From: Parapedobacter soli
Lineage (GTDB): Bacteria; Bacteroidota; Bacteroidia; Sphingobacteriales; Sphingobacteriaceae
Length of the DNA stretch: 64,000 nt
Assembly: GCF_025460835.1 (NCBI RefSeq)
Contig: NZ_JAMXAY010000021.1
Location: forward strand, 1-64,000
Direction: 5' to 3'
Shown: piece after piece, positions 13,439 through 33,556 of the stretch
Layout: every line of letters starts with the position of its first letter
Numbering within the stretch: the first letter of the stretch is position 1
The notes under the pieces: generated by a model
Database searches by the model: none
What the model saw: only the letters and a program-made list of their open reading frames with translations
Told to the model about the DNA's origin: nothing
Made by a program: the position numbers and the translations under genes

Positions 13439-15187
13439 TCACCATCCCGGTGTCTGAGAAATATAGCCCTTGTCGAATTCACTTTGCGGTATGGGATAAC
13501 GGTACATCCGGTTGTCCCACACGCGGTTCTCGAACACTTCCTTGCGGTATATGATATCGCCGTTTGCCTGCTCATATAGATTGAGGCCCCACATGCTTCC
13601 CCGCATCACCCCTTCTTGATCGGCAATAAGCCACCGCCTTACATCCCAATACCGGTGTTCTTCAAATGCCAGCTCGATGGCACGTTCCCTCCGGATTGCC
13701 TCGCGGAGTTCTTCCTGTGTATCGTAGCGTGCGTCTGCAGCTGAGAGTTCGGGGATACCCGCACGGCGGCGGATTTCGTTCACCGCCGCATAGCTTGCGC
13801 CGTCCATGGGGTTGATCTCGTTAAGCGCCTCGGCATAGTTCAGGTAGAACTCCGCCAAGCGGAAGACAATCCAATTGAGTTGCCCGCCATCCCAGTTCAA
13901 GCGCGACAGGAACTTCTTCATATAACCTACCCCGTTCACGGGCGCATGCTCGGTCCACGAGCCATTGTTGCGGCGGTAGAAATGCCGCACTCCGTATTCA
14001 TCGTTCCAACGCGATCCGGAATAAAACACCGACCGCTGGAACCGGGGCTCCAATTCGCCCATTTTCCCCAAAAACTCACTATAGGGCCCCTCGTCGGGCC
14101 ACACTTGGTCCTGACCGGCTACCGTATAATATTTTTGGGCATGCTGCAGGGTAACGCCGTGGCCATACCAACCCGCATAGATGCCACGGGGCATCACAAA
14201 CTGAAACATCATGGGCCACCAGGCCCCCCACCAGTTGTCTGATTTATTGGCAAGGATCACCTCGGCATTGTCAGGCAGGGTCACGGCTGTTTCGTATGCG
14301 GCCCCCGGGTCAGCGGGGTTTACGATAAGCCGGATATTGCCTGCACCGGAAGCCCAATCCAACACCGCTTTGGCGGCATCCGCTGCCGCGCGCCACCGTT
14401 CGGGATTGTAGTCTACATAGCCGGTATATTCACGCTCTTGCGCGTTGTAGGGACTTGCGCTGTTCGCAAGCGGACTAGCCGCAAACAGCAGCACACGCGA
14501 TTTGAGTGCCAATGCGGCACCTTTGGTGGCCCGTCCGAGGAACGCCGACGGATAGCCGTCGGGCAATACTGCCGCAGCTTCATCGCAACTCTGCACAATG
14601 AAATCAACACACTCGGCATAGGTATTGCGTGGTAATTTGACATCGCCGTCGGCCTGCAACACATGGTCCACAATGGGAATACCTCCATAGCGTTTCAACA
14701 GTTCGGCATGCTGCAAGGCCCTCAAAAAGATTGCCTCAGCCCGCATCTGTGTACGCTCCTGCTCAGACATGTCGGGCACCCGGTCAATGTTGGCGATAAA
14801 GATGTTTGCATTGCGGATACCTTTGTAATGGTGGCCGAAGCCGTCCTCCGGATTGGATTGCGGCCCCCACACACCGGTATTGAACGTATTCGATCCCGGC
14901 CAATCGTCGTAGACGTCGCCTTCATCGCTCGCCGCCATCACCATGGAGGCGTCTTTGACCCCTTCCCAGCGCCCCCAGTCTTTGGGGAAACCGGCAGGTA
15001 CTGACGTGCCGTAGGTTTCCCAGAGAAACGTTTCGGCCTTTATTTTGGCAGAAAAGATGGTATCGATGGTCACATCGCTGCTGTCGGGCTTTTCGAGAAA
15101 ATCCTTATTGCATGAAGCAAGCACCGCCACGCAACAGCCCAGTACCCCAGCTGCTATATACTTCCAAAACTTGTCTAATTTCTTCAT
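13439..15187 (-). CDS. SusD/RagB-like glycan-binding lipoprotein, first pair of PUL A
   Basis: Surface lipoprotein partner of the SusC encoded 17 bases upstream. The signal peptide ends in the lipobox VLASC followed by NKDFLEKP, the typical mature N-terminus. Residues about 145-175 carry RAEAIFLRALQHAELLKRYG of the TPR core, and the C-terminus carries ELAFEEHRYWDVRRWL and MYRYPIPQSEFDKG. At 582 residues it is within the usual range. The aromatic-rich stretch around residues 320-350 (NWWGAWWPMMFQF) lies where SusD proteins often form the ligand platform, but this is a guess from composition. Confidence 0.95.
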   Translation of the reverse strand: MKKLDKFWKYIAAGVLGCCVAVLASCNKDFLEKPDSSDVTIDTIFSAKIKAETFLWETYGTSVPAGFPKDWGRWEGVKDASMVMAASDEGDVYDDWPGSNTFNTGVWGPQSNPEDGFGHHYKGIRNANIFIANIDRVPDMSEQERTQMRAEAIFLRALQHAELLKRYGGIPIVDHVLQADGDVKLPRNTYAECVDFIVQSCDEAAAVLPDGYPSAFLGRATKGAALALKSRVLLFAASPLANSASPYNAQEREYTGYVDYNPERWRAAADAAKAVLDWASGAGNIRLIVNPADPGAAYETAVTLPDNAEVILANKSDNWWGAWWPMMFQFVMPRGIYAGWYGHGVTLQHAQKYYTVAGQDQVWPDEGPYSEFLGKMGELEPRFQRSVFYSGSRWNDEYGVRHFYRRNNGSWTEHAPVNGVGYMKKFLSRLNWDGGQLNWIVFRLAEFYLNYAEALNEINPMDGASYAAVNEIRRRAGIPELSAADARYDTQEELREAIRRERAIELAFEEHRYWDVRRWLIADQEGVMRGSMWGLNLYEQANGDIIYRKEVFENRVWDNRMYRYPIPQSEFDKGYISQTPGW

Positions 15188-15204: not shown

Positions 15205-18200
15205 TTAGAATTGTACGTTTATCCCAAAGTTATACACCCGCATCTGCGGGTAGAATTGGCCGCGGCCACTGGGCGATTCCGGATCGAAGTGCCGCACGCT
15301 GCTCCAGGTGAGTAGATTGTTGCCATTGGCAAACACGCGTACATGGCTTACACCCATCTGGGCAAGGAAAGGGCCGCTAAAGCGGTACGCAAGTTCGGCG
15401 TTCTTCACCCGCAAGTAACGGCCGTCTTCCAGCCAGAAATCCGATTGGGTATAATTATGCTTACCCGGCGTGGGCGACAGCTCCACCCGGGGGAAGGTAA
15501 TGGTTTCGCCATTTGCATAACGCTCGGGGGTCCACCGCTCCAGGTGTGTTTTCTGCGCACTGCCCCAATCCGTATCAAACGGCCACGCCGCCATTTCATT
15601 TAGGTAAAACGATGCCTTATCGGTACCCTGGAACAGCACCGAGAAATCAAACCCTTTGTAATCAAACCCAAGGGCAACGCCGTATACGCCTTGCGGGAAT
15701 GTAGAAAATCCAATCGGCCCGCGGTCATAGTCGTCGAGCGCGCCGTCACCATTCCGGTCTATGTAGCGGATATCGCCCGGCTGGGGGGTTCCCCAGGCCC
15801 AAGAGGTGATGCCGCTGTTTTCGATTTCCTCGGTGGTATTGTAAATGCCATCGCTGGTGAGGCCGAAAAACTGGCCGACCGGCCGGCCGGTTTCGCGCAT
15901 GTATTCGAATGGCCGCTCGGGTTCGTCCATAAACAGGATTTCGTTTTTCGCATAGGTGTAATTGGCTTTCACCCAGTAGTTGAAGGCATTGATATGGTGC
16001 CGGAAATTAACCTCCACCTCAAACCCGCGGTTTTCCACCGAGCTGATGTTGGCCGGGGGTAGCGGTGCCTGTACCAGATCGGGCACCGTGCCCAGGTAAG
16101 ACAGGATGTTGTCGCGCCGTTCATGGAACACGTCGCCCACAATGCCGATCATGTCGTCGGCCAGGTTCAACTCCAATCCAATGTTGCTTTTCCGGGCGCG
16201 TTCCCACGTTACGTTCGGGTTGCCTACTTTCCCTTCCTGTGAACCTCCATACCATTGCACATTGCCGGCATTGGCATCGCCGAAATGGTAGCCCCCGGCG
16301 TAGTTAAACACGTCCGGTAAATATAGGAAGCGCTCACCACCGATTTTGTCGTTGCCCACCTCACCGTATGACCCGCGTATTTTGAGGAAGCTGATCAGCC
16401 CATCCTTCGGCATGAAAGGTTCTTCGGTAACTACCCAGCCCAATGAAAACGAGGGGAAAAAGCCGTATCGTTTGTTTTCGGGGAAGTTCTCGGAGCCGTT
16501 ATACCCCATATTGAACTCGGTGAGATACCGCCCCGCATACCCGTAGGTGGCGCGGGCCACCGTGCCGACGTAGCCCATCGGAACGGCATAGGCGTACGAA
16601 GGGTTGTGTGCTTTTTCCTGCATATATAACAACAGGCCGGTAACGCGGTGGTCACCAAAGGAGCGGGCATAATCCAGCGCGAGTTCGGTGTATATCTTCC
16701 GGTTGCGCCCGTAGCCTTCACTGAATGAAAACGGCGTATCCTCCCCGTTCCGGATGAATACAGGTTCGTCCGGGTTGTTTGGATTGCGCACAATGTTGTA
16801 GGTAGCGGTCCACTTGTTGCGCCGCACCCAGTGCTGGTAATAGTGGTCATACGCCAGCATTCCCCGGGCCGAAAGGCCTTCGGTAATGAAGCCCAGCTTG
16901 TGGCTCAGCCCGATGTTAGCGTTGAGCGTACTGTTGAAGTTCCGTTGGAAGCCGCTGGACGTAATGAAGCTTAACGGGTTGTTGATATTGGCCGGCAATC
17001 CTTCCACGTTATCGATGATGCGCCCGTCTACAATACCGGGGTTCATCAACGGGTTCGCCCGCAGCATGCGGAAGAAAATTTCGCCTGCACCCTGACCGGG
17101 GTAATTCATATCTGCCACTTGCCCGGCCAGTTTGAGTGTTGCCGAGAAGTTATCGTTGAAATCCATGTCGAAATTCGACCGGAAGTTGTAGCGCTGATAC
17201 TTGGGATTGGCCGAGAATTCGCGTTGCGCTTCGTTTACGTCATACGCGCCGTTTTGAGAGAAATACCCCGCGGAGACAAAATAGCGCGTATGTTGCGCCC
17301 CGCCGTTGATGTTGAAGTTGTGCTGCTGCTGGGTGGATACATCACGGATAATCATGTCATACCAATCGGTACTCGGCCTGAATATCGGGTCGGAACCGGT
17401 ACGGTACGCTTCGATGTCGGCCGGCGAAAAAAACAGTTGCTGGCGCCCCATATTCTCTTCGGCCTCGTTATGCAGTATGGCATATTCGTAGCTGTTGAGC
17501 ATCTCCGGAAGGCTGTTCGGTGCCTGCAATCCCACGTTGGCCGTATAGCTGATCTGGGGCTTACCCGATTTACCCGACTTGGTGGTAATCAGGATAACCC
17601 CGTTGGCTCCCCGCACCCCGAATACGGCCGTGGCGGAAGCGTCTTTCAGGATACTGATGTTTTCGATTTCATGGGGGTCAATTTCATTGAAATTCCGCGG
17701 AACACCATCCACCAATACCAGCGGATCGGATTCGGCCCCTTCGTTCAATGTGCCAATACCCCGGATCTTCAGCCTTGACTGGTCGTATCCGGGTTCGCCA
17801 CTGGGCTGCAAGGCAACCAAACCGGGTAGACGGCCCACCAACGAGTTACTGATGTTGGCGGTGGGCGACTGCACCAACTGTTCGCCCTCCATCGTGGAGA
17901 CCGCTCCGGTCAGCGTAGCCTTTTTCTGCGTACCGTAGCCGATCACCACCACCTCATCGAGGGTGGCTTCATCTACTTCCAACCGTATGTTAATCGTGGT
18001 GCGCCCGTTTACCGGTTGCTGTTGCGTGGTATACCCGATGAACCGGAATACGAGTGTGGCATCGGGCGATAGGTCGTTCAGCCGGTATGCCCCTTCGGTG
18101 TCGGTGGTTACCCCGTCGGCGGCACCTTGCACCAGCACGCTTACCCCGGGTAAGGGCGTCCCTTGGGCATCCGTTACCTTTCCCGATACAGGTGCCTGTC

Positions 18201-18273
18201 CGTGGGCGGGCAACACGGCAATGGCGCACACCCACAAAGCCACCAACATACCAATACGTTTTAATTTCTTCAT
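15205..18273 (-). CDS. SusC/RagA-like TonB-dependent transporter, first gene of PUL A operon
   Basis: Outer-membrane importer of 1022 residues with a signal peptide ending at AHGQ. The regulatory domain starts at VSGKVTDAQGTPLPGVSVLV. The signature LDEVVVIGYGTQKKATLTGA precedes a canonical plug (LKIRGIGT, LVLVDGVPR, ISILKDASATAVFGVRGANG). The barrel ends in NFGINVQF. It is the promoter-proximal gene of a seven-gene operon and diverges from the HTCS gene by 231 bases. The HTCS most probably activates it through the GGGG direct repeat about 95-125 bases upstream of the ATG. Confidence 0.96.
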   Translation of the reverse strand: MKKLKRIGMLVALWVCAIAVLPAHGQAPVSGKVTDAQGTPLPGVSVLVQGAADGVTTDTEGAYRLNDLSPDATLVFRFIGYTTQQQPVNGRTTINIRLEVDEATLDEVVVIGYGTQKKATLTGAVSTMEGEQLVQSPTANISNSLVGRLPGLVALQPSGEPGYDQSRLKIRGIGTLNEGAESDPLVLVDGVPRNFNEIDPHEIENISILKDASATAVFGVRGANGVILITTKSGKSGKPQISYTANVGLQAPNSLPEMLNSYEYAILHNEAEENMGRQQLFFSPADIEAYRTGSDPIFRPSTDWYDMIIRDVSTQQQHNFNINGGAQHTRYFVSAGYFSQNGAYDVNEAQREFSANPKYQRYNFRSNFDMDFNDNFSATLKLAGQVADMNYPGQGAGEIFFRMLRANPLMNPGIVDGRIIDNVEGLPANINNPLSFITSSGFQRNFNSTLNANIGLSHKLGFITEGLSARGMLAYDHYYQHWVRRNKWTATYNIVRNPNNPDEPVFIRNGEDTPFSFSEGYGRNRKIYTELALDYARSFGDHRVTGLLLYMQEKAHNPSYAYAVPMGYVGTVARATYGYAGRYLTEFNMGYNGSENFPENKRYGFFPSFSLGWVVTEEPFMPKDGLISFLKIRGSYGEVGNDKIGGERFLYLPDVFNYAGGYHFGDANAGNVQWYGGSQEGKVGNPNVTWERARKSNIGLELNLADDMIGIVGDVFHERRDNILSYLGTVPDLVQAPLPPANISSVENRGFEVEVNFRHHINAFNYWVKANYTYAKNEILFMDEPERPFEYMRETGRPVGQFFGLTSDGIYNTTEEIENSGITSWAWGTPQPGDIRYIDRNGDGALDDYDRGPIGFSTFPQGVYGVALGFDYKGFDFSVLFQGTDKASFYLNEMAAWPFDTDWGSAQKTHLERWTPERYANGETITFPRVELSPTPGKHNYTQSDFWLEDGRYLRVKNAELAYRFSGPFLAQMGVSHVRVFANGNNLLTWSSVRHFDPESPSGRGQFYPQMRVYNFGINVQF

Positions 18274-18338: not shown

Positions 18339-18346
18339 CAAATATC
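18339..18346 (-). promoter_or_regulatory. Candidate -7 box for the PUL A susC promoter
   Basis: GATATTTG on the minus strand matches TAnnTTTG except at the first base. The GGGG repeat begins about 21 bases upstream, over the -33 position, as expected for an activator-dependent promoter without its own good -33 element. The PUL B susC gene has the analogous GAGTTTTG box. Confidence 0.4.
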
Positions 18347-18366
18347 AACGAACAATATGGTTTGAT

Positions 18367-18398
18367 AAGGGGTGAAACTCGTCAAAAGAGGGGGGTAA
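18367..18398 (-). promoter_or_regulatory. Putative HTCS operator upstream of PUL A susC
   Basis: On the plus strand AAGGGGTGAAA (from 18367) and GAGGGGGGTAAA (from 18388) form a direct repeat 21 bases apart, two helical turns. A very similar pair lies upstream of the other HTCS-controlled susC gene at 30077-30107. Bases between the repeats are only partly shared. Assignment to the AraC-type output domain of the HTCS is inferred from position and recurrence. Confidence 0.5.
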
Positions 18399-18504: not shown

Positions 18505-21500
18505 ATGATACGTTTATATCCCTTTATCGTAGTTATCATAGCTGCTTCCGTGTTTGTTCATATAAATGTGTATGCAACAATAAAAAACCACGTTAGCTAC
18601 CTGGGTATTGAGCAAGGGTTATCAAACAACTATGTAACGAAGATATTCCAGGACCGGCACGGCTTTATGTGGTTCGGCACCTACGATGGTTTGAACCGCT
18701 ATGACGGCTATCAATTTAAGATCTATAAAAACCAGCCGGAAAATGCGGCTACATTGCCGGACAATCGCATCATCGATATCATCGAAGATGCTTCTGGCCA
18801 TATATGGGTAGCTACCAAGGGAGGTGCAGCGGTACTCCGCCAAGGCGCCGAGACGTTCCAGCAATTACATCTTGTAACCGAAAACGGAGAATACGCACCT
18901 ATCGCGTTTGCCATCACCGGATTTGCCCTGGACGACGACCAGCGACTGTTTGCAGCTGGCGAGCGGGGCGGTGTATTCAACATCCGTCTTTCCGAAGCAG
19001 GGATCCCGATTGCCGAGCCCATTGTGTTGCTTATGGAGGGGACGCAGAAAACAAATTACAATGCACAAACACTACATCTCGACCCGGATAATGGACTATG
19101 GGTAATGATACAGAATACCGGCCTTTGCTATTATGATAAGAAGGAAAACGCCATGCGGCTGGTCACTGATGAAGTCCGCACGGCCACGTGCATGGAAATC
19201 GTCGGCGGCCGCCTCTGGGTAGGCAACGAGTACGGCCTGTTCCGGTACCAACCACAAGCAAAAAAGTACATACACTACAACCTGCAGTCGGGTTTACCCA
19301 GCAACCTGGTTTCTGCACTTTACGAAGGAAAAGACGGTAGGCTCTGGATATGTACTGACGGCGGTGGCATTGCCGTGATGAATACGCAGTCGGGCGAATT
19401 CGAATACCTGACAGGGAGCGACGAAGGCGGTGTGTTGACGAGTAAAGCCGTATTTGCAGTGTATGAAGATGCCCAGTTGCGCCAGTGGATTGGCACATTG
19501 CGGGGCGGAATAAACATAATCGACCGCAATAAGGGCAATTTCGAACTGGTAAAACACCCCACCCCGGAAGGTGTTATCAGCGCGAATAATTTTGTGCTCT
19601 CTTTTGCTGAAGGCGATGCCCATACGCTGTGGATTGGAACCGATGGGGGTGGACTGATGAGGTGGGACAGAGAAGCAGACCGATACGAATATTTCAAACA
19701 AAACGAGCACCGGGGTGCGTTGAGCAGCAATTATGTGACCAGCGTACTGAGCGACAGCGATAACGGCCTTTGGGCAGCCACCTATGGCGGCGGAATAAAC
19801 CGTTGGGATCAACAAACCCGATCATTTATTAGCTATACCTGTACAGCAGCTGATTTGACCAACCACCGCTACGTTTGGAAACTCCACGAAGATAAACTGA
19901 ACCGCATTTGGGCGACAACCCTCGCTGGCGGCGGCATATATTTACTAAACCGGGAAACCGACCGCTTTGAACCCTTTGCGATTAATGTGACCGACGCATT
20001 AAGTATCTTTGAAGAAGATGACGACGTATTCTGGTTTGGCAATTATTATGCGCTGATCAGGGCAGACATGTTCACGCGGTCAACGCAACATTTCGATATA
20101 GGCCATCCGGTACGCTGTATCCATGATGGAGCCGGCAATTTACTATGGGTAGGTACCGAAGGCGGCGGGTTACTTGCTTTTGATAAGCTAAGCGGAACTT
20201 ATAAGCGTTACACCGAAGAAAACGGCCTACCCAGCAACGTCGTGCTCAACATCCTGGAGGACGACAATGGCAGTTTCTGGATTTCGACGTATAACGGATT
20301 ATCGAAATTCAATCCCACAGACCGGACATTCCAAAACTTTTATGAATCGGATGGACTGCAGAGCAACCAATTCAGCTATAATGCTGCTCTTGAAATGAAA
20401 TCAGGAGAATTCTTGTTTGGCGGTATCCGGGGGTTCAACATATTCCACCCCGATAGTGTGCGCTTCGAAGCCGCTGCACCACCGGTTGTATTGACAGATT
20501 TACGGATTAACAACCGGCCGTTCAATAGCTATCTGGATCGGACTGACAATTTATTAACAATGACCCGTCTCGTCCTTCCCTACCAGCAGGCGGTCCTCAC
20601 ATTCGGTTTCGCCGCATTAGAATATGCATTTCCCGATAAAATCAAATACGCATATTTCTTGGAAGGCTGGGATAGCGACTGGAATTACGTAGACGGGCAG
20701 CGAACTGCCCACTACTCCCGGCTGGCCGAAGGCACGTACACGCTCCGCATCAAATCAACCAATACCAATGGTACATGGAGTGGGGCCGAACGGACCATCG
20801 CCATTGAGATATTACCCCCTTGGTGGCGTACCATGTGGGCATACTGCATGTATGTAATGGCTGGTTTAGGTATCATTTACCTCTATATCGTTTACGACAG
20901 GTGGCAAACAAAATTGAAATATGAAGTAGCGCTGGCGCGTAAGGACGTAGAGAACGAACGCCGGCTTAATGAAAAAAAACTAGCATTCTTCACCCACATC
21001 TCCCATGAGTTCCGTACACCGATAACCTTGATTGTCAACCCCATCAAGGACATGCTCTATAGCGAAAACAAGGTATTTGATCCAGAAGAGCTTACCAATG
21101 TGTACCGCAACTCGCGACGGTTGCTCAGTTTGGTCGACAAACTTCTGCTCTTCCGGAAAGCGGACAGCGGAGTAGATGAACTTCGGCTTGTCAAGTTGGA
21201 CCTAGTAACGTTATGCAATGAGGTATTCTTCTGCTTTAAGCAGCATGCCGCATCGCGTGACATATCCTATCGGTTTATCTGCGGTATGGAGGGGTTGGAG
21301 GTGCTCGGCGACCGGGAAAAATTGGAAATCTGTTTGTTTAACCTCATTGGCAACGCTATTAAATTCACACCTGACCATGGTAGCGTGACGATGATGCTTT
21401 CTAAGGCAAATGAAGAAGTTGAAATTGTGGTTTCGGATACCGGTTGTGGCATCCCTGCCCATGTGGGGGATGCACTGTTCAACCGGTTTTACCGCGACTA

Positions 21501-22587
21501 CGAGGGTAATGGCCATGGTATTGAAGGATTTGGAATCGGCTTATTCCTTACCAAGCAGTTTATTGAGGCTCACAATGGTTCCATTTCGTATACAAGCACG
21601 TTAGGCAAAGGGACTTGTTTTAGTCTTCGGCTACCCACCGGAAAAGAACAATACGAAGGTCGCTTGGTATTTGAAGATGTAGGCGAACATTCGGCCTTTC
21701 TGGACGAGCTATTGCCCGATGCTCCAGAAGAAGATGCCGTTGGAGCCGAGGTGGTCCATCGGGAACTCACTCATGTCTCTGACATGGTGTCGGATGGCCC
21801 GGTGATGCTGGTGGTCGATGACAATGACCAAATCCGAGCTTACATCCGGCAAATCTTTGAAAATGATTATACCGTGTACGATGTTGACAACGGGTCCGCT
21901 GCGTTGGAATTTGTCAAGTCGTATGAACCCGAAATTGTCATCAGTGACGTGGTGATGAAAGGGATGTCAGGCATCGACCTGTGCTCGCAGATGAAAAGGG
22001 ATCCGTTATATAGCCATATTCCGGTTATCCTACTTACGGCCAGTTCATCCGCTGAGGTAAAACTCAAAGGGATAGAAGGCGGTGCCGACGACTACATCAC
22101 CAAGCCGTTCGATAAGGAACTGCTGATTGCCAGGGTATCCAATATACTTAGGGGTCGGGACCAACTGCAAACGTATTTTTACAACGAGATTACCTTTCAA
22201 AGCAACGATCACAAAATCCCCACGGCCTATAGTGATTTCCTTAGGCGATGCATCGGAATCGTCGAGGCACAACTTGATAACCCTGATTTCAATGTCAAAA
22301 CGCTGGCAGACGAAATCGGGATGAGCCACTCCAACTTATACAAGCGGATCAAATCTATATCCGGCAAGTCGGCCAATGAATTCATTCGGTTTATACGTCT
22401 CCGTAAGGTGGCACAGCTGCTCATTACCACCAACCAGAACATCAATGAGGCTGCTTTTTCAGCCGGGTTCAATGATATCAAATACTTCCGCGACCAATTT
22501 TCGAAGCTATTTGGCATGAAGCCTTCCGAGTACAAACGGAAATACGGAAAGGTGTTCAGCAAGAAACACACGTTGAAAAAGCGGTAG
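18505..22587 (+). CDS. Hybrid two-component system sensor/regulator (HTCS) of PUL A
   Basis: A one-protein sensor, kinase and transcription factor of 1360 residues in the inner membrane. After a signal segment (1-24), residues about 30-670 are periplasmic propeller repeats (FMWFGTYDGLNRYDG, LWIGTDGGGLMRWD). A Y_Y_Y domain lies near 690-770, and one membrane helix near 776-796. The kinase has H834 in HISHEFRTPITLI, an N box (NLIGNAIKFT), and G boxes (VSDTGCGIP, GFGIGLFLTK). The receiver has D1148 in VISDVVMKG and the conserved Lys in ITKPFD. The final 110 residues are an AraC-type HTH (VKTLADEIGMSHSNLYKRIK, then AAFSAGFNDIKYFRDQF). All catalytic boxes are intact. Such proteins bind an oligosaccharide released by their PUL; it is divergent from the PUL A operon that it should activate. 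Confidence 0.96.
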   Translation: MIRLYPFIVVIIAASVFVHINVYATIKNHVSYLGIEQGLSNNYVTKIFQDRHGFMWFGTYDGLNRYDGYQFKIYKNQPENAATLPDNRIIDIIEDASGHIWVATKGGAAVLRQGAETFQQLHLVTENGEYAPIAFAITGFALDDDQRLFAAGERGGVFNIRLSEAGIPIAEPIVLLMEGTQKTNYNAQTLHLDPDNGLWVMIQNTGLCYYDKKENAMRLVTDEVRTATCMEIVGGRLWVGNEYGLFRYQPQAKKYIHYNLQSGLPSNLVSALYEGKDGRLWICTDGGGIAVMNTQSGEFEYLTGSDEGGVLTSKAVFAVYEDAQLRQWIGTLRGGINIIDRNKGNFELVKHPTPEGVISANNFVLSFAEGDAHTLWIGTDGGGLMRWDREADRYEYFKQNEHRGALSSNYVTSVLSDSDNGLWAATYGGGINRWDQQTRSFISYTCTAADLTNHRYVWKLHEDKLNRIWATTLAGGGIYLLNRETDRFEPFAINVTDALSIFEEDDDVFWFGNYYALIRADMFTRSTQHFDIGHPVRCIHDGAGNLLWVGTEGGGLLAFDKLSGTYKRYTEENGLPSNVVLNILEDDNGSFWISTYNGLSKFNPTDRTFQNFYESDGLQSNQFSYNAALEMKSGEFLFGGIRGFNIFHPDSVRFEAAAPPVVLTDLRINNRPFNSYLDRTDNLLTMTRLVLPYQQAVLTFGFAALEYAFPDKIKYAYFLEGWDSDWNYVDGQRTAHYSRLAEGTYTLRIKSTNTNGTWSGAERTIAIEILPPWWRTMWAYCMYVMAGLGIIYLYIVYDRWQTKLKYEVALARKDVENERRLNEKKLAFFTHISHEFRTPITLIVNPIKDMLYSENKVFDPEELTNVYRNSRRLLSLVDKLLLFRKADSGVDELRLVKLDLVTLCNEVFFCFKQHAASRDISYRFICGMEGLEVLGDREKLEICLFNLIGNAIKFTPDHGSVTMMLSKANEEVEIVVSDTGCGIPAHVGDALFNRFYRDYEGNGHGIEGFGIGLFLTKQFIEAHNGSISYTSTLGKGTCFSLRLPTGKEQYEGRLVFEDVGEHSAFLDELLPDAPEEDAVGAEVVHRELTHVSDMVSDGPVMLVVDDNDQIRAYIRQIFENDYTVYDVDNGSAALEFVKSYEPEIVISDVVMKGMSGIDLCSQMKRDPLYSHIPVILLTASSSAEVKLKGIEGGADDYITKPFDKELLIARVSNILRGRDQLQTYFYNEITFQSNDHKIPTAYSDFLRRCIGIVEAQLDNPDFNVKTLADEIGMSHSNLYKRIKSISGKSANEFIRFIRLRKVAQLLITTNQNINEAAFSAGFNDIKYFRDQFSKLFGMKPSEYKRKYGKVFSKKHTLKKR

Positions 22588-22632: not shown

Positions 22633-25071
22633 TCAGTCTACCCGCAACGACACCGTAACTGGTTCCAACCAAGGGCTGGTGCATGTTACCGTCACAGTAC
22701 CCGGCTCGCCCGTTGACAACATGTAGGCCAATAACCTGCCTCGGTACGCCCGGTGCGTATCGTCTGTGTAGTCACTCATGTCGGAGTTGTTGCTGCCTTC
22801 GAGTCCCAGCAATTCAGCGGGGCCATCGACCTGTACCGAAATGTTATCGTCGGCAAGGGTAACCGGTAGCCCATCTTCATCCACGATTTCGATGGTTACG
22901 TGGGCAAGCTCGTGGCTACGCCCGAGTTGCGCCCGGTCTACCGAAGCGACCAGCTTATGGGGCCGCTGCGACGTTTGGATAGTGTGCCGAGCGGCTTCTT
23001 CGCCGTTGTGGGTCCCTACCGCTTCTAATCGGCCCGCCCGGTAAGGGATATCCCAATAATAAACGCCGGTTTCGTCATCGAATCGCTTTTCGGCGGCAAC
23101 GGGCTCGCCGTTGAGCAGGAGGTTCACATCGGCGCAATTGGTATAGCTGACCACGCGAATGGTATCACCGTCGGCATAATTCCAAACGGGCCACGCATCC
23201 ACCGACACACGCCGCTGCCATGGATTGTGGATAGGGTAGGTCCCGATGTAAACCATCGGCTTATCGGCCCAGAGCGACTGGCGATAGTAGCCACGTGGCT
23301 TGATGAAGCCACCGAAGTCAAGCAATCCGGAATAGAAACCACGTGATGGCCAGCGGCCCGATTCGCCAAGGTAGTCGATACCTGTCCAAAGGAACTGGCC
23401 GAAGATGTGTTCGTTATCGCGCACCGCCTTCCAGGCGGCCAGGTCGTGGCGGTTTTCGCTGCCGTATATCACGCGGTCGGGGTAACGCTCGTGGTCTTCA
23501 TGGTACCGGCTCTCGGTATAGTTGTAGCCAGCAATATCGAGTGCAGCGGGATAGGCCGTTTCGTTCGACATCGCCACGCCCGCCAAGCCTGCGGTAACGG
23601 GGCGGCTGGTGTCGTATTTTTTCACCACCACGGCCAAACGCTTCGCGATATCGCCGAGGCGCATGGCATCTGGGGCATCGGGTTTGAACCCACCGAATGT
23701 GGCCTGCGTAAAGCCGCCGTCTTTTTCATCGCCATCCAATACCGGGTGCGAATACGGGTCATTGGGGTAGTCCACCTCGTTGCCGATGCTCCACGCAAAG
23801 ATGGAGAGGTGGTTGCGGTCGCGTTTTACCATATCGGCCAAGTCCTGCTCACCCCATTCTTCGAAAAAGCTGTAAGCCCCTTGAAACCCGGGTGTACCTA
23901 CGTTCCACCCCTCTAACCACTTCCGCTTAGGGAACTCCCACTCGTCGAACGCTTCGTTCATCACCAACAGCCCCAGCTCGTCGCACAGTTCGTAAAGCGA
24001 GGAAGCTTGGGGGTTGTGGCTGGTGCGGATGGCATTCACACCGACCTCCTTCAGCGTCAACAACCGGCGGCGCCAAACTTCGGGATACACCGCTGCCCCC
24101 AACACGCCCGCATCGTGGTGCAGGCATACGCCTTTTACCTTCATCCATTCGCCATTGAGGGCAAAGCCCTTATCGGGATCGAAGGTAAACGTGCGGAATC
24201 CGGTTTTAACCACCGACTGGTCGATCGGTTCCCCCCCCCGCAGCACGACCGTCTCCAACGTATACTGAACGGGATCGTCCAACCGCCACAACACCGGGTT
24301 TTTCACATCCAGCGTCAATTGGACTTCCTGGCGGCCGGCGGATGCAATAGATGCTTTGGTGGTCTTTTTGGCTACCGTGGCACCCGCCGGGTCTTTCAGT
24401 TCGGAGACGATGGATACGTCAGCTGGCGAAGTGGATTGGTTAGCCACGGCCACCTGCACATGCAACGTGCCTTTATTTCGGTCTACCGTAGGATACGCAT
24501 ATACGCCCCACTGTTCGAGATGCACGGGCGCCGCCCGTACCAACCATACATCGCGGTAAATACCGGAGCCCGTGTACCAGCGTGAATCGGCATCCTGGCT
24601 GTGGTCTACCCGTACCGTCAATACGTTTTCTTCGCCATACCGGACGTGCGGCGTGAGGTCGTACATAAACGAAATGTAGCCGTTTGGGCGTTTGCCAAGC
24701 GACTGGCCGTTGACGAACACTTCGCTGTGGTTGTATACCCCTTCAAAGTAGACGTACAGCTGCTGTCCGCGATAGTCGCTTGGCACGCTGAGCGTTTTGC
24801 GGTACCAACCGATGCCACCCGGCAGGTAGCCGGTGGCGCTGGCCAGCGTGGGGCTGAGCGGTTGTTTGACCGACCAGTCGTGCGGCAGGTCCAATCGCTC
24901 CCATGAACGGTCGGGTTCGCCGGGTTGTTCGCCTTCAGGCACGTCGCCCAGCTTGAACGCCCAGCCATCGTTTATCTTCTCGGCCTGGCCGAATCCGGGT
25001 TGTCCATATACATGGGCAGGCCTAAGCCCCATCGTAATACAGGCCACAAAAAAACAGATCGTCAATCTCAT
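22633..25071 (-). CDS. Glycoside hydrolase family 2 enzyme, beta-galactosidase-like
   Basis: A secreted retaining exo-glycosidase, probably a beta-galactosidase. The ATG at 25071 begins MRLTICFFVACITMGLRPAH and has AGGAAG about seven bases before it; the frame open to 25167 would run into the SusD gene. About 812 residues: a sugar-binding jelly roll (LDLPHDWSV, GIGWYRKTL), an Ig-like domain, a TIM barrel with acid/base E432 in SIGNEVDYP and nucleophile E539 in YGSENRHD, then a DUF4982-like domain (YTNCADVNLLLNGEPV) and a last Ig-like domain. GH2 enzymes with DUF4982 are common in Bacteroidota PULs. It is the last gene of PUL B, 43 bases after SusD. A run of nine G residues (24231-24239) lies within the coding strand. 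Confidence 0.92.
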   Translation of the reverse strand: MRLTICFFVACITMGLRPAHVYGQPGFGQAEKINDGWAFKLGDVPEGEQPGEPDRSWERLDLPHDWSVKQPLSPTLASATGYLPGGIGWYRKTLSVPSDYRGQQLYVYFEGVYNHSEVFVNGQSLGKRPNGYISFMYDLTPHVRYGEENVLTVRVDHSQDADSRWYTGSGIYRDVWLVRAAPVHLEQWGVYAYPTVDRNKGTLHVQVAVANQSTSPADVSIVSELKDPAGATVAKKTTKASIASAGRQEVQLTLDVKNPVLWRLDDPVQYTLETVVLRGGEPIDQSVVKTGFRTFTFDPDKGFALNGEWMKVKGVCLHHDAGVLGAAVYPEVWRRRLLTLKEVGVNAIRTSHNPQASSLYELCDELGLLVMNEAFDEWEFPKRKWLEGWNVGTPGFQGAYSFFEEWGEQDLADMVKRDRNHLSIFAWSIGNEVDYPNDPYSHPVLDGDEKDGGFTQATFGGFKPDAPDAMRLGDIAKRLAVVVKKYDTSRPVTAGLAGVAMSNETAYPAALDIAGYNYTESRYHEDHERYPDRVIYGSENRHDLAAWKAVRDNEHIFGQFLWTGIDYLGESGRWPSRGFYSGLLDFGGFIKPRGYYRQSLWADKPMVYIGTYPIHNPWQRRVSVDAWPVWNYADGDTIRVVSYTNCADVNLLLNGEPVAAEKRFDDETGVYYWDIPYRAGRLEAVGTHNGEEAARHTIQTSQRPHKLVASVDRAQLGRSHELAHVTIEIVDEDGLPVTLADDNISVQVDGPAELLGLEGSNNSDMSDYTDDTHRAYRGRLLAYMLSTGEPGTVTVTCTSPWLEPVTVSLRVD

Positions 25072-25114
25072 GGTTACTTCCTCGCTTTTGCTATGGTTCG
25101 ATACAAATTTAACA

Positions 25115-26815
25115 TCAATAATCGGGGTTCTGTTGCAGTTGGCCGTTCGAGGCGAGGATTTCCTCACGCGGGATGGGCAGCCAATAGTGCCGTGGCAGGA
25201 ACTGGCGGCCGTCTAGCGCCACCTTACGCTCGTAGCTGAAGGCATTGCCACTACGTGTGATTTCAATGCCGTAGGCAGGTACGTTTTCCGTGTCTTCGGC
25301 GATAAGCCACCGCCGCACGTCATAGAACCGGTGTTCTTCGAATGCCAATTCGATGCGGCGTTCGTAACGGACCAGCTCGCGGAACGCATCGGCACTTAAC
25401 CCTTGCGGTATCGCAGGCATTTCCACACCCGCCCGGGCGCGGATTTGGTTGAGCGCTTCACGCGCACTGAACGGTGCGCCTGCCGGCACGGCATCGGGCC
25501 CTGCGGCCTCGTTTGCCGCTTCTGCAAAGTTGAGTAGGATTTCGGCATACCGGAAATAGATCCACGGTTGCAGGCCAGCGATATTCCACGGATTGTTGAT
25601 GGGCATTTCCTCGTCTATGAACTTGTGAAGGTAGTAGCCGGTACGGCTGGTATTCCAGTTGTCGGCACCCTCGCGGCTATCGCGGCCACCGGGCACGAAT
25701 GTTTCGATGGCACGGCCGCGGTACTGGGCGCCATTGTATAGGATGGTTGCATAGAAGCGTGGATCGCGGCTCTCATAGGGGTTTTGCGGGTCGTAACCCG
25801 AATCTTCGTCGTCGATGGCTTTGCCATTGGCCATCCGGTACGCATCCACGAGGTTCTGCAGCGGCACATTGCCACCCCACCCACCATGGCCGTTGGGGCC
25901 GTTGGCAATCTCCATGGGTACGTGGCGTGCACCAACGGAGTAGTACCTTGCAAAGATGATCTCGTTGTCGGTAGACGCCGTACGGAAGAGCTCGCGGTAC
26001 CCGTTTTGCGAAATGCTGTACTTATTGCGTCCAATGACGGCCACGGCCGCATCCACGGCATCTTCCCAACTACCGGTAGCGTAGAGCGGACTGGCGGCAT
26101 ATAACGCAAGGCGCGATTTCAGCGCCAGGGCAGCGCCAGCGGTAGCACGCCCCAGCTGCCACGACGAACCATTTTCCGCCGGTAGTCCGGCAGCAGCTTC
26201 ATCCAGCTGGGCCATGGCATAAGAAATACAGGCCTGCAGGTCTTGCCGTTCGAAAAGTGCCGGATCGGTCAAGTCGTCATTCAGTTGGTATACCTTATCG
26301 CCCAGCAGCGGCACGCCGCCATAATTGCGGATAAGGTCGTGGTAGCGAAAAGCACGGATAAATTTCAGTTCGGCGATGAGCCTGTTTTTGCGTACCTCGC
26401 TCATAGGTACCTGACCAATGTTGGCCAGTGCATAATTGCACTCGCGGATGCTTCGGTAACTCCTTTTCCAAAAGGTCCCCGCGATACCCGTATTTTCTGG
26501 TGAGAGCTGTCCCCGCTGGATAAGCCAGGTGTTGTCGTCGTTGTTGTACACCGATTCGTCGGTAAGCGACGACCACAGGGCATATTCAAACCCGCGGCCG
26601 AATCCCGGTGGCGTGCCTTCTGCTTCCTTATCGGTAAGCCGCACACCCATGTATCGATTGACCACGAAAGCCTCAAACAATACCGAATCGGACAAGATAG
26701 CGGCATCTGATACCCGGTCCGTGGGTACCACGTCGAGAAAGTCATTATTGCAGGCGGTGAGGGCAGCGATGCCCGTGATGCCCATCATCAGATATAATCT
26801 TTTCAATGCGTTCAT
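25115..26815 (-). CDS. SusD/RagB-like glycan-binding lipoprotein of PUL B
   Basis: Surface lipoprotein of 566 residues. The signal peptide ends in the lipobox ALTAC, followed by NNDFLDVVPTDRVSD, the classic mature start. Core motifs are RAFRYHDLIRNYGGVPLL and, near the end, ELAFEEHRFYDVRRWLI and HYWLPIPREEILAS. It lies 38 bases after its SusC partner and 43 bases before the GH2 gene, so all three should share one transcript. Nothing is unusual in its length or motifs. Confidence 0.95.
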   Translation of the reverse strand: MNALKRLYLMMGITGIAALTACNNDFLDVVPTDRVSDAAILSDSVLFEAFVVNRYMGVRLTDKEAEGTPPGFGRGFEYALWSSLTDESVYNNDDNTWLIQRGQLSPENTGIAGTFWKRSYRSIRECNYALANIGQVPMSEVRKNRLIAELKFIRAFRYHDLIRNYGGVPLLGDKVYQLNDDLTDPALFERQDLQACISYAMAQLDEAAAGLPAENGSSWQLGRATAGAALALKSRLALYAASPLYATGSWEDAVDAAVAVIGRNKYSISQNGYRELFRTASTDNEIIFARYYSVGARHVPMEIANGPNGHGGWGGNVPLQNLVDAYRMANGKAIDDEDSGYDPQNPYESRDPRFYATILYNGAQYRGRAIETFVPGGRDSREGADNWNTSRTGYYLHKFIDEEMPINNPWNIAGLQPWIYFRYAEILLNFAEAANEAAGPDAVPAGAPFSAREALNQIRARAGVEMPAIPQGLSADAFRELVRYERRIELAFEEHRFYDVRRWLIAEDTENVPAYGIEITRSGNAFSYERKVALDGRQFLPRHYWLPIPREEILASNGQLQQNPDY

Positions 26816-26853: not shown

Positions 26854-29800
26854 CTAGAAGCTCACGTTGATTCCTAAGTTGAAAATTCGTTGCTGGGGGT
26901 AAAACTGTCCGCTTTCGCTCGACCCCTCGGGGTCGAAGTCTTTCAGTCCGGTTACGGTAAACACGTTAAAACCGCTGCCATACACCCGTACCCGGCCAAG
27001 ACCAACACGCTGAACGATGCTTTCGGGTAGTGTATAGCCCAGTTCGATATTTTTCAACCGCACAAATGCCGTGTTGAACAGCCAGAAGTCGTTGCGGTAC
27101 AACCCGCCACTGATAGCAGAGGACGCCCGCTCGTTAACCTTCGGGTACGTGCCCTCGGGGTTGTTGGGACTCCACCGGTTTTCGGCCCACGTATTGAAGT
27201 AATTACCTATCGTGCCCGCTTCGGAGAGGATGTATTGCCTTGACTTGCCCTGGCCAGCCAGCACGGCCGAGATGTCGAAGTTACGGTAACTGGCGTTGAA
27301 GGTGAGCCCAAACGTGAGTTGCGGGATGTTGCCCAAATCAGTGCGCACCATATCGTCGGCGGTAATTTCGCCGTTCTGGTCATAGTCTTCAAAAATCAAG
27401 TCGCCCAGCCCCGCTCCCGGCACATGCGGGTAGTTGTTGAGGTCTTCTGCCGTGCGGAAGATACCGATGGTGCGGTACAGCAAGTATGTATTGAGGGGGC
27501 TGCCCGTTTCGCGCTGGTGTTCTGGAATACCGGGTGCCTCATCGCGGAAGACCACATTGCTCTTCACCAGCGTGATGTTACCGGATATACCGTAATTGAT
27601 TTCTCCACGGTGTTGGTAGCCCAGCGTGGCTTCAACACCACGGTTGTCTACCTTACCGATATTTTCTGAGGGCACCAGCGGATCGCTACCGTGCGGGTTT
27701 ACAATACCCGTTACCCCCGGTATGGATGCATTGCGCGGCAACAGGATATCCGATCGGTTTTCGTTGAAATAGATGAACTCCAGGTCAAATCTATCGAACA
27801 GCCGGGCGTTGAAGCCTACGTCGGTTTTTTTCGAAACTTCCCATGTGATGCTGGGGTTGGCCAGCTTGGCCAGGTCTATGCCGGCATAGATATTGTTGCC
27901 GATGGTATACGTATTGTTGAAGAGGTAGTTGTTGATGAATTGGTTGGCGCCCACGTTATCGCCACCGAGTTCGCCATACGAGGCCCTGATCTTCAAATCG
28001 TTGATAAACCCTGCATTGAACCACTCTTCATCCGAAAGGCGCCAGCCGGCGGAAACACCGGGGAAATAGCCGAAACGGCCGTTTTCGGGGAAGATGGATG
28101 AGCCATCCACGCGCAGCTGCACTTCGAGCAGATACCGTTGTTTGTAATCGTAGTTGGCCCGGCTGATGAAGCTCACGCGGCTTTCGCGCCAGCTAAGCCC
28201 CGCGTTGGTGCGGTCTTCGAGCGCGGTGCCCCCCTGAGAGAGCTCCGGCGTGAGCGGCGAGGGGAAATTGCGCCTACCGGCCTCGATGCGCGAGAGCGTC
28301 CGTTCACTTTGCTCATAAGCGGCAAAGGCTTTGACGTTATGGCTACCAAACGACTGCTCGTAGTTGAGCTTGATATTGGCCGTGGCGAGCGCCGTATTCT
28401 GCTGGAAATGCTGGAGCTGCGCACGCGACTCCCCTACTGTCCTTGGGTCGTATGTTCCCGCATTGGCATCGTGACTGTACACGAGGTACGGGGTAATGAA
28501 GTTCTTGCCCGACTCCTGTGATCTGTCGACGGCCAGGAAACCGTCCAACATCAATCCTTCGAGAAAAGGCAGCTCATAGGAGGCCCGCAGTATACCGTTA
28601 AACACCAGTTTGGGGTTGTTGTTTATGCCGCCGGCATCCGTCACCATCATCACGGGGTTGTTGTTTTCAATTCCTGTGCTGGGCATACCGTTGGCATAGC
28701 GGGCCGGGATGGTGGGGTAGGCACGGTAAATGCTGCGGAAGATATCACCCGCTCCCACCGTGGGGAAGCGGCGTTTTTCTTCCCTTCCCGCCAACGATAG
28801 CCCCGCCTTGAAGCGGTCGGTCACGTCCATATCGATGTTGGAACGGAAGTTATATTGGTTGTATTTGGTAACACCTTCTTTGAACAGGCCATCTTGCATC
28901 AGCGTGCCAGCCGATACGAAATACCGCGTGCGATCGGAGCCGCCCGACACCGAGAGGCTGTGCTGGTTTTGCAGTGCAGTGTTCGCGAGTACCTCCTGTT
29001 GCCAGTCGGTATTGGGAAAACGGTCGGGGTCAGACCCATCCCTGAATTTCTGGATATCCGCTTCGCTGTAAAACTGGTTCATGCCCCCATTTGGGTTGCT
29101 GTAATAGTCGATCTCGTTGCGTATCGCCGCATAGGTAGCAGCATCTGCCATTGACGGTAAGCGCGTGGGCGACGAAAACCCTTGGTTGAAGGAATAGGAA
29201 ACCGTGGGCTTGCCCGACAGCCCTTTGCGCGTGGTAACGAGGATAACGCCGTTTGCCGCACGGCTGCCGTAAACGGCCGCTGCCGCATCTTTGAGCACGG
29301 TCACGCTTTCGATGTCGTTGGGGTCTAGCCGTTCCAGTCCGCCCACCTGTCCCGGCACACCATCTACCACCACGAGTACATCGGTATTGCCGGTGGTAGA
29401 CACGCCGCGGATGCGCAACTGCGAGCCATCGTACCCCGGTTCACCGCCGCGGTTTGTCGCCACCAGCCCGGAGAACCTGCCGGCGAGCGAGTTGGATAAG
29501 TTGGGTTGCGGACTTTTGATCAGATCGGCACCTTTCACCTCGGATACCGAGCCCGTTACCGTGGCGCGGCTTTGGGTGCCGTATCCCACTACCACCACTT
29601 CGTCAAGGGCTTGGGCATCTTCTTCCAACACCACATTACGAGTCGCCTGCGTGTTGGCAGCAGTGCCGTCGATGGTGATTTCTTCGGTGAAGAATCCCAC
29701 GAAGCTGAAGACGATCACATCCCCCTCGGCAGCTACGGTAAGCTGGTACCGGCCAGCATCGTCCGTTGTGGTGGTGGTTCCCGCCTGCTTCAAGGCGACG

Positions 29801-30012
29801 GTTACGCCCGCCATCGGATTGCCTGCCACATCTCGCACTACACCCGATACGGTGGTCTGCAATGTTGCCGAAACGTACCTTCCATAAGGCGCGGTCAGCC
29901 ATCCACCAGCCGATGTGACGGCCGGCACAACCAAGCAGCCTGAAAGCAATAGGCAGGCCAGCCGGTTGGTTTTGTTGTTGCATCGAAATGCATGCTGTAC
30001 ATGTTTAACCAT
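26854..30012 (-). CDS. SusC/RagA-like TonB-dependent transporter of PUL B
   Basis: Outer-membrane importer of 1052 residues. The N-terminus is longer than usual (MVKHVQHAFRCNNKTNRLAC before the hydrophobic segment), giving an extended signal region before the regulatory domain at VSGVVRDVAGNPMAGVTVAL. It has LDEVVVVGYGTQSRATVTGS, a plug with LRIRGVSTTGNTDVLVVVDG and VTVLKDAAAAVYGSRAANG, and a barrel ending NLGINVSF. It is the first gene after the HTCS gene of PUL B and has its own upstream repeat at 30077-30107, so it is likely activated by that HTCS, provided that the frameshifted regulator is functional. Confidence 0.96.
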   Translation of the reverse strand: MVKHVQHAFRCNNKTNRLACLLLSGCLVVPAVTSAGGWLTAPYGRYVSATLQTTVSGVVRDVAGNPMAGVTVALKQAGTTTTTDDAGRYQLTVAAEGDVIVFSFVGFFTEEITIDGTAANTQATRNVVLEEDAQALDEVVVVGYGTQSRATVTGSVSEVKGADLIKSPQPNLSNSLAGRFSGLVATNRGGEPGYDGSQLRIRGVSTTGNTDVLVVVDGVPGQVGGLERLDPNDIESVTVLKDAAAAVYGSRAANGVILVTTRKGLSGKPTVSYSFNQGFSSPTRLPSMADAATYAAIRNEIDYYSNPNGGMNQFYSEADIQKFRDGSDPDRFPNTDWQQEVLANTALQNQHSLSVSGGSDRTRYFVSAGTLMQDGLFKEGVTKYNQYNFRSNIDMDVTDRFKAGLSLAGREEKRRFPTVGAGDIFRSIYRAYPTIPARYANGMPSTGIENNNPVMMVTDAGGINNNPKLVFNGILRASYELPFLEGLMLDGFLAVDRSQESGKNFITPYLVYSHDANAGTYDPRTVGESRAQLQHFQQNTALATANIKLNYEQSFGSHNVKAFAAYEQSERTLSRIEAGRRNFPSPLTPELSQGGTALEDRTNAGLSWRESRVSFISRANYDYKQRYLLEVQLRVDGSSIFPENGRFGYFPGVSAGWRLSDEEWFNAGFINDLKIRASYGELGGDNVGANQFINNYLFNNTYTIGNNIYAGIDLAKLANPSITWEVSKKTDVGFNARLFDRFDLEFIYFNENRSDILLPRNASIPGVTGIVNPHGSDPLVPSENIGKVDNRGVEATLGYQHRGEINYGISGNITLVKSNVVFRDEAPGIPEHQRETGSPLNTYLLYRTIGIFRTAEDLNNYPHVPGAGLGDLIFEDYDQNGEITADDMVRTDLGNIPQLTFGLTFNASYRNFDISAVLAGQGKSRQYILSEAGTIGNYFNTWAENRWSPNNPEGTYPKVNERASSAISGGLYRNDFWLFNTAFVRLKNIELGYTLPESIVQRVGLGRVRVYGSGFNVFTVTGLKDFDPEGSSESGQFYPQQRIFNLGINVSF

Positions 30013-30046: not shown

Positions 30047-30054
30047 CAAAACTC
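30047..30054 (-). promoter_or_regulatory. Candidate -7 box for the PUL B susC promoter
   Basis: GAGTTTTG on the minus strand matches TAnnTTTG except at the first base, the same deviation as GATATTTG before the PUL A susC. It lies about 23 bases downstream of the GGGG repeat. Low information content; supported mainly by the parallel arrangement. Confidence 0.35.
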
Positions 30055-30076: not shown

Positions 30077-30107
30077 GAGGGGTAAAAACGAAAATAGAGG
30101 GGGATAA
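30077..30107 (-). promoter_or_regulatory. Putative HTCS operator upstream of PUL B susC
   Basis: On the plus strand GAGGGGTAAAA (from 30077) and GAGGGGGATAA (from 30097) form a direct repeat 20 bases apart, 65-95 bases upstream of the susC ATG. The pair closely resembles the one at 18367-18398 in both sequence and spacing. Confidence 0.5.
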
Positions 30108-33100: not shown

Positions 33101-33556
33101 GGCTAAACCATAATACCGGATGTTGGGGAAGTTAGCAGGCCAGGAGGCCCCGGCGCCAAATTGGGCAAAGTTGTACTTGGGTTTGGCGGTTAGAAAAAGG
33201 CCGTCGCCTGATGTGCCTACCCATACGTTGCCGTCGTGGTCTATGAATAGCGCCGGCACCGAACGTTCGGTCAGTGCCACTTTGTAGTTGGCATCTGCGA
33301 TCAGCGGGATAGACACCAAGTTAAGTGCCGGGTCGGTAGTCATACGGAAGCGGTACACACCGCCGTCTTCCATACCCACATAGAGCTGGTCATTTCCATC
33401 GGTTACCAGCGAAAGAAACCGATTGCTGGGCAGGTTGAGCTGATCGGCTGGAACCAACGGTGTTTTGCCGTATGCCGATCGTAAACCAGCAGCCCGTTGT
33501 CGGTAGCCACCCATACCCGGTTGGCTATATCTTCGTAAATGTGGTGCACACGGCAA
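30128..33556 (-). CDS. HTCS of PUL B, C-terminal portion after a frameshift
   Basis: Main part of a hybrid two-component protein split from its N-terminus (33403-34239) by a frameshift near 33450. Homology begins at VPADQLNLPSNRF; the first 30 or so residues of this frame (MPCAPHLRRYS and on) are out-of-frame noise, so the nominal start at 33556 is not a real one. It holds the remaining propeller repeats, a Y_Y_Y domain, a membrane helix after LPPWYRTWWAY, a kinase (His at 31637-31639 in RLSHEFRSSLTLI), a receiver (ILVVEDD, VCDIMLADG, LVKPFD) and an AraC HTH (VQVLADACGMTYATLSNRVK). The kinase H box reads HEFRSS where HEFRTP is usual. Joined, the two parts give about 1370 residues, matching the PUL A regulator. 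Whether a full protein is made is unknown. Confidence 0.85.
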   Translation of the reverse strand: MPCAPHLRRYSQPGMGGYRQRAAGLRSAYGKTPLVPADQLNLPSNRFLSLVTDGNDQLYVGMEDGGVYRFRMTTDPALNLVSIPLIADANYKVALTERSVPALFIDHDGNVWVGTSGDGLFLTAKPKYNFAQFGAGASWPANFPNIRYYGLAEDRQGNLFVGTDGHGLFKFDAQNRLVKHYTACSHEGCLTDNALLYAYRDRRNRIWFGTYKGGLLQYRPKTDDFLAYRFDATVEGFSGGNDVRVVFEDHRGQLWIGTNGGGLNRLNENTGRFTRYLQTNSNIPANDIRAVAEDHDGNLIVGTYGAGITFFDPQKEQFGLPRHEALYEQLKNEVIFALHVTEENHLWIATESMGLLVYDLHAKHVVRHVDEHNGLASNTVFSIQFDKAGNCWLSTNKGLSKIMRQQKLVFNFGHSSGIQSGIFNPNSALFSTRRNQLFFGGTGGLTYFSPPTVVRKAPDSPVTLTGMAIFGQSVQVGVPRDQPMLSRALNETSSITLGPWQTTFTIYYSSLEYGYADELQFAYKLTGLDADWNRAGHQRSATYRYLSPGEYTFAVGVESGGIVRPDSIRTLRIVVLPPWYRTWWAYLGYLAIAAVIYFYYRKYRRQKAALKYELAIATIEREKEKEWNELKINFYTRLSHEFRSSLTLILNPVKDLLGSNPPPQLEPYVSTLHANTTRLLRLADQALAVRQDELISENLVLSEFDVVQLIRDVIDCLTNLAAKKKIALSLHATTNRLPVWSDREKLETIIFNLLFNAVKFTDEGGVTATVKLDEEDHLEITVTDTGCGVAETVGLRLFEQYYHLSAADPQLPKGFGVGLWLVKSLVELLGGTIIYQSRQGHGTTFTIRLPPNRIDTDAGTDTATSAHISNTLARTIQRAATTSKILVVEDDLELAKYLKSEFETEYTVWLADNESDALEIVADEMPDIIVCDIMLADGNGLHFCQTVRQNASWKHIPVLLMTATKGTEIQIDGIENGADDILVKPFDKGVLQAKVKALLQRNQNLRDYFLNHVTDAVGYQKIAPEDKALLDKCISIIESRLTDDAFNVQVLADACGMTYATLSNRVKDINQQTPNALIRTVRLHKAAQLLLTTDATIYEVAYQVGIKDLKYFREQFAKLYRLNPSEFVKKYRKPFHETLHSN

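Follow-up and report, generated by a model that had tools for sequence, protein, structure and literature searches.

The window analysed here is a 64,000-nucleotide stretch (positions 1-64000 of contig C92) of a 5.17-Mb draft genome (G000), and it contains PUL A and PUL B, two neighbouring clusters for the use of plant-type sugars. In both of them a susC gene is preceded by a pair of short, regularly spaced tracts, which raises the question of whether these pairs are the operators of the HTCS regulators encoded beside them, and whether such an operator is general to HTCS-linked susC genes, as a preliminary description of this DNA had suggested. The features concerned are listed in Table 1.

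Table 1. Genes and promoter elements at sites A and B (window coordinates)
Feature	Position	Strand	Basis
susC_A, first gene of PUL A, preceded by site A	15205..18273	-	TIGR04056 match, Pfam
susD of PUL A	13439..15187		Pfam
Second susC/susD pair and two GH43-domain genes of PUL A			Pfam
HTCS_A (Reg_prop, Y_Y_Y, HisKA, HATPase, REC, HTH_18), divergent from susC_A	18505..22587	+	Pfam; tree
Site A, distal C-tract box, TTTACCCCCCTC	18390..18395	-	sequence; kept in congeneric HTCS_A orthologues L109-L111; held-out matrix rank 2
Site A, promoter-proximal C-tract box, TTTCACCCCTTA	18369..18372	-	21 bp from distal box; sequence, orthologues, held-out matrix
Site A, -7-like box, GATATTTG (cf. TAnnTTTG)	18339..18346	-	22 bp downstream of proximal box; aligned sites; consensus PMC7366714
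susC_B, preceded by site B	26854..30012	-	TIGR04056 match, Pfam
susD of PUL B	25115..26815		Pfam
GH2 gene of PUL B	22633..25167		Pfam
HTCS_B, C-terminal ORF of 1142 aa with kinase, REC and HTH_18, same strand as site B and directly upstream of it	30128..33556	-	Pfam; tree
HTCS_B, N-terminal 278 aa of sensor, separate overlapping ORF	33403..34239	-	tblastn with intact L250 orthologue
Site B, distal C-tract box, ATTATCCCCCTC	30099..30103	-	sequence; kept in orthologues L141-L146; held-out matrix rank 1
Site B, promoter-proximal C-tract box, TTTTTACCCCTCA	30079..30082	-	20 bp from distal box; sequence, orthologues, held-out matrix
Site B, -7-like box, GAGTTTTG	30047..30054	-	24 bp downstream of proximal box; aligned sites L250-L255

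On the plus strand, site A consists of a GGGG and a GGGGGG tract whose starts are 21 bp apart, and site B of a GGGG and a GGGGG tract 20 bp apart, in agreement with the two repeats at 20-21 bases reported previously. The tracts had been read as GGGG; they are indeed present, but this is the template strand, and because both susC_A and susC_B lie on the minus strand, the functional reading is C-rich. On the coding strand, the tract pairs are TTTACCCCCCTC...TTTCACCCCTT (site A) and ATTATCCCCCTC...TTTTTACCCCTCA (site B), the full elements are TTTACCCCCCTCTTTTGACGAGTTTCACCCCTTA and ATTATCCCCCTCTATTTTCGTTTTTACCCCTCA, respectively, and the consensus common to both susC promoters is CCCCTCTWTT-N5/6-TTTYACCCC. 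Both pairs are followed by GAnnTTTG, after 22 bp in A and 24 bp in B (21-24 bases in the preliminary description), and the elements lie 67-122 bp before the susC ATGs (18273 and 30012), within the 65-125 bases given earlier. As in known HTCS direct-repeat operators, each site thus has two similar half-sites in direct orientation, approximately two turns apart, and is located upstream of a PUL operon with a cognate-type HTCS gene nearby.

The gene arrangement differs between the two loci: HTCS_A and susC_A are divergent, whereas HTCS_B and susC_B are in tandem. HTCS_A, the presumed ligand of site A, has a complete domain set, and HTCS_B has all but a HisKA match (Pfam), distributed over two ORFs. 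A tblastn search with the intact congeneric orthologue of L250 revealed that two frames meet near 33413-33449, so that HTCS_B is split by a frameshift, which may be either a real inactivation or an error of the draft.

To what extent is the pair found elsewhere in this genome? Among the 350-bp regions upstream of 56 susC genes (one of them truncated where its contig ends and another with hardly any of its length in the fetched sequence), a C4-N15-19-C4 pair (19-23 bp start-to-start) occurred in only two, namely sites A and B, which confirms that no similar pair precedes the susC gene of PUL C. The other 54 regions, including those of other HTCS-adjacent susC genes, lacked the pair, and the suggestion of an operator general to HTCS-linked susC genes is ruled out for this genome on these grounds. 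We also searched the whole 5.17-Mb genome with sequence patterns. The pattern CCCCTCTNTTN{5,6}TTNNACCCC, which was derived from these two sites, matched exactly two places in the genome and none in 119 relatives. The looser pattern TTNYCCCCN{12,17}WWNWCCCCYY gave three matches genome-wide, two of which were sites A and B (backwards control, 0), and 0-5 matches per genome in eight congeners, so that roughly one match in each genome may be due to background. Of 1000 shuffles, 8 reached the local similarity of the A and B upstream regions, and in plain local alignment this pair ranked 26th among 1431 pairs of susC upstream regions. Since the raw similarity of A and B is weak when taken alone, the case rests on conservation. 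In the same comparison, the upstream regions of five other susC genes (C91:49161, C1:282995, C1:4670, C24:94371 and C99:3365) were mutually more alike than A and B; these five genes carry long N-terminal extensions, and their upstream regions are perhaps ECF-sigma-type promoters.

Orthologues of HTCS_A were found in three congeners (L109-L111; 52-53% identity over the sensor), and in all of them a C-tract pair of 20-22 bp is kept between the HTCS gene and the divergent susC, although the intervening DNA differs. Orthologues of HTCS_B (L141-L146; 72-81% identity in three congeners and 49-55% in another genus) keep the pair between the HTCS stop and the susC start, for example as CCCCCTATCATTTTCATTTTTACCCCTCAC and CCCCCTACGATTTTTGTTTTTACCCCTCAC; in all, seven PUL B orthologues (L250-L255 and L351) do so. 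In 22 sites of relatives, the period from first C to first C has a mode of 22 bp and a range of 20-24 bp. Across genera the boxes are retained in DNA that otherwise varies, and the spacing between them and the susC start differs widely from one relative to another. Downstream of one HTCS gene (L256, G037:C7), three successive boxes were observed (CCCC-23-CCCC-24-CCCC), which suggests extended C-tract arrays in some relatives.

We then compared the regulators. Both HTCS_A and HTCS_B end in an HTH_18 (AraC-type) domain according to Pfam, and among the 11 HTCSs of this genome with such an end domain, their output domains are reciprocal best matches (41% identity), sharing the unusual second-helix motif DxKYFR[DE]QFxKL. 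A search with the receiver/output domain of HTCS_B retrieved a set of HTCSs of the family, separated from the remainder by a clear score gap, and 38 loci of this A/B-type set were compared with 42 other HTCS loci. In the tree of receiver and output domains, the 38 formed one clade of 40 together with HTCS_A and HTCS_B (SH-aLRT 99). A loose C4 pair was located within 600 bp of the HTCS gene at 24/38 clade loci and 5/42 other loci (Fisher p 2e-6), the stricter window-derived motif was detected in the HTCS flanks of 14/38 and 0/42 loci (p 6e-6; shuffled clade flanks, mean 0.14 of 38), and the pair was present upstream of the susC gene found beside the HTCS in 16/22 clade loci and 2/14 controls (p 0.0016); as related loci are non-independent samples, these Fisher values overstate the evidence and serve as a guide only. 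On the tree, the pair label was found at 26/40 loci inside the clade and 5/51 outside, and was clustered in 500/500 shuffles. In the searched flanks of 14 of the 38 clade loci there was no strict pair; some of these loci have no susC in the fetched stretch and some have one-mismatch pairs. No pair was found in the flanks of the 12 best-scoring matches of an output-domain profile search, mostly HTCSs of other families. In this search of contigs, receiver domains of all bacteria dominated, and no members of the family were among the matches listed.

Because the pair recurs across the family beside one HTCS branch, it is very probably the landing site of that branch. The comparison suggests that specificity follows the output domain and not the gene arrangement; the pair would then be absent before other HTCS-linked susC genes because the regulators of those genes differ in their DNA-binding domains and would read other sequences. 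A C4 pair also precedes a susC gene at L312 and L295, two loci whose HTCSs fall outside the A/B clade, and a related core may be present in other HTCS branches.

The strongest consensus of the family, CCCC-N10-14-TTTTACCCCTCA, was found 12 times in 301 family genomes, in 11 cases beside an A/B-type HTCS (backwards control, 2), and never outside the family in the phylum sample; many of these 12 sites had already been seen when the pattern was chosen, and that of G123 (L351) was new. One consensus match (G067:C5:342447) lies more than ~5 kb from any HTCS or SusC relative. In addition, a two-box matrix was built from 22 sites of relatives, with A and B left out, and was run on both strands of 1.09 of the 5.17 Mb. 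Site B ranked first (29.9 bits) and site A second (27.0). The consensus and matrix tests are not fully independent, since their sites were picked by the C4-pair rule that had been derived from A and B.

The third-ranked match of the matrix (26.1 bits; C1:199075-199109, minus strand, L061/L357) has three C-tracts in phase and lies ~70 bp before a GH2 gene with a GTG start, which is followed by susC on the same strand. This GH2 is 67% identical to the window GH2 at 34379-36841. Within ~20 kb of the site, the only HTCS found (C1:179592-183806) is outside the A/B clade in the tree. It is plausible that this candidate site (C1:199077-199108) is a target in trans.

The best reading of these observations, to which we assign a probability of about 0.82, is that each pair serves an AraC-type HTCS dimer as a tandem operator, from which susC would be activated. 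The preliminary description had also proposed a dimeric AraC-type activator, which gains support from the HTH_18 ends, the single clade, the conservation of the pair and the held-out matrix. HTCS_A and HTCS_B, whose AraC-type output domains belong to one DNA-binding lineage, would each recognize TTnACCCC(C)T-like half-sites, and two subunits would bind head to tail on the same face of the DNA, two turns apart. The Bacteroidetes sigma-ABfr promoter has a -7 element TAnnTTTG and a -33 element TTTG (PMC7366714). GAnnTTTG is found at the expected place: in A and B it follows the proximal box after 22-24 bp, and in all six of the PUL B orthologues L250-L255 it is at the same distance, 27-28 bp when counted from where the proximal tract begins. 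On the other hand, the first base is G instead of T, no exact TAnnTTTG occurs there, and there is no clear -33 TTTG, the proximal box being at that place. Numbered with GAnnTTTG as the -7 element, the proximal box would span roughly -38 to -34, and the distal box would lie two turns farther upstream. The placement over -33 noted previously is approximate, since the proximal box would abut that position. Such a placement is normal for an activator contacting polymerase. In this model the promoter would be of the sigma-ABfr type, with its -33 region immediately downstream of the proximal half-site; on sensing its glycan, the HTCS in its phosphorylated form would bring polymerase to the promoter and induce susC together with the remaining genes of the PUL. 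At locus A, the divergent promoter of HTCS_A may be a further target of the same site. Scanning for sigma-70 promoters near site B yielded a single match; it was on the wrong strand, and about that number is expected by chance.

HTCS_A and HTCS_B are predicted to share operator specificity for two adjacent PULs. It is possible, though we regard it as rather doubtful, that both read the same operator well enough to join the two PULs and the GH2-susC operon on the other contig in a cross-wired regulon. Usually each PUL is pictured with an HTCS of its own, so such a regulon would be a departure, and HTCS_A would perhaps run PUL B should the frameshifted HTCS_B be inactive.

Several other explanations were considered. 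The consensus match without HTCS or SusC neighbours would be easier to understand if the pair were the site of another transcription factor, global or PUL-wide, that happens to act at these promoters. We consider this unlikely, since the pair goes with a single clade of HTCS output domains and is seldom found at HTCS loci outside it or before other susC genes. The Crp-like palindrome TATGTTnTAnAACATA of Bacteroides sugar genes (PMC3878776) was rejected as a candidate, the A/B element being a direct repeat of C-tracts. It is very unlikely that the similarity is leftover promoter homology from the duplication of an ancestral PUL start region, in which the repeats are unselected. Although susC_A and susC_B are homologous (35%) and the local alignment runs somewhat past the boxes, unselected intergenic DNA should be saturated at 35% protein identity; moreover, the boxes are kept across genera in changed surroundings, and one locus is divergent and the other tandem.

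Even less probably, the repeats would act through RNA or DNA structure, for example as a leader RNA element or a G-rich structure, and not by binding a protein. The template strand does carry G-tracts, but two per site are too few for an intramolecular quadruplex, and the variable distance to the susC start also argues against it. Being upstream of the -7-like element, the boxes are probably outside the transcript, and an RNA element was rejected because an Rfam search of the window gave no match. The modest rank of the A-B pair among the susC upstream regions would fit a chance resemblance of two C-rich stretches, yet this is contradicted by both the phylogenetic footprint in relatives and the ranking by the held-out matrix, and we consider coincidence extremely improbable.

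The direct-repeat architecture by itself is already known: B. thetaiotaomicron has 16 predicted HTCS motifs, every one a direct repeat with its two sites on average 21 bp apart, from which dimers on one DNA face were inferred, and in Bacteroides motif similarity follows output-domain similarity, so that related HTCSs such as BT4111 and BT4124 may share a motif (Ravcheev et al. 2013, PMC3878776). Sites A and B resemble these operators as direct repeats of ~21 bp upstream of PUL operons; they differ in coming from another family of the phylum, and perhaps in their ACCCC-centred sequence. Gel shifts have demonstrated that BT4124-RR binds the bt4114 and BT4663-RR the bt4662 susC promoter (PMC11253607). 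Like these proteins, the A/B regulators carry a REC and HTH_18 output domain, predicted here to act at a susC promoter, whereas the A/B clade comprises other regulators with other sites. We know of no gel-shift experiment of the BT4124-RR kind for this clade.

As far as the literature was searched, HTCS operators outside Bacteroides have hardly been described. In the openly accessible papers covered, no published report of the A/B motif in related genera was found. What appears new, to the same extent, is the operator sequence, its output-domain branch, its breadth in the family and the predicted shared specificity of two adjacent PULs. The putative operator, TTTnACCCC..-20/22 bp-..TTTTACCCCTCA, recurs across the family in association with a branch recognizable by its DxKYFREQFxKL second helix; it would allow the prediction of PUL targets in trans and a direct test of cross-talk between adjacent PULs.

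SusR-like operators are also direct repeats upstream of susC-type genes, but they have a spacing of 67 or 77 bp and a different regulator type (PMC3878776), and sites A and B, at 20-21 bp, do not belong to them. Elsewhere in this genome, a perfect 15-bp direct repeat, GTAGGGGTATTGTAG, occurs twice, 54 bp apart, followed by TAGTTTTG (G000:C1 ~31170-31240). It precedes a susC gene (C1:31392-34436, HMM match), adjoins a Y_Y_Y-domain regulator with a LuxR-like C-terminus (C1:28150-31062), and resembles a long-spaced SusR-type operator.
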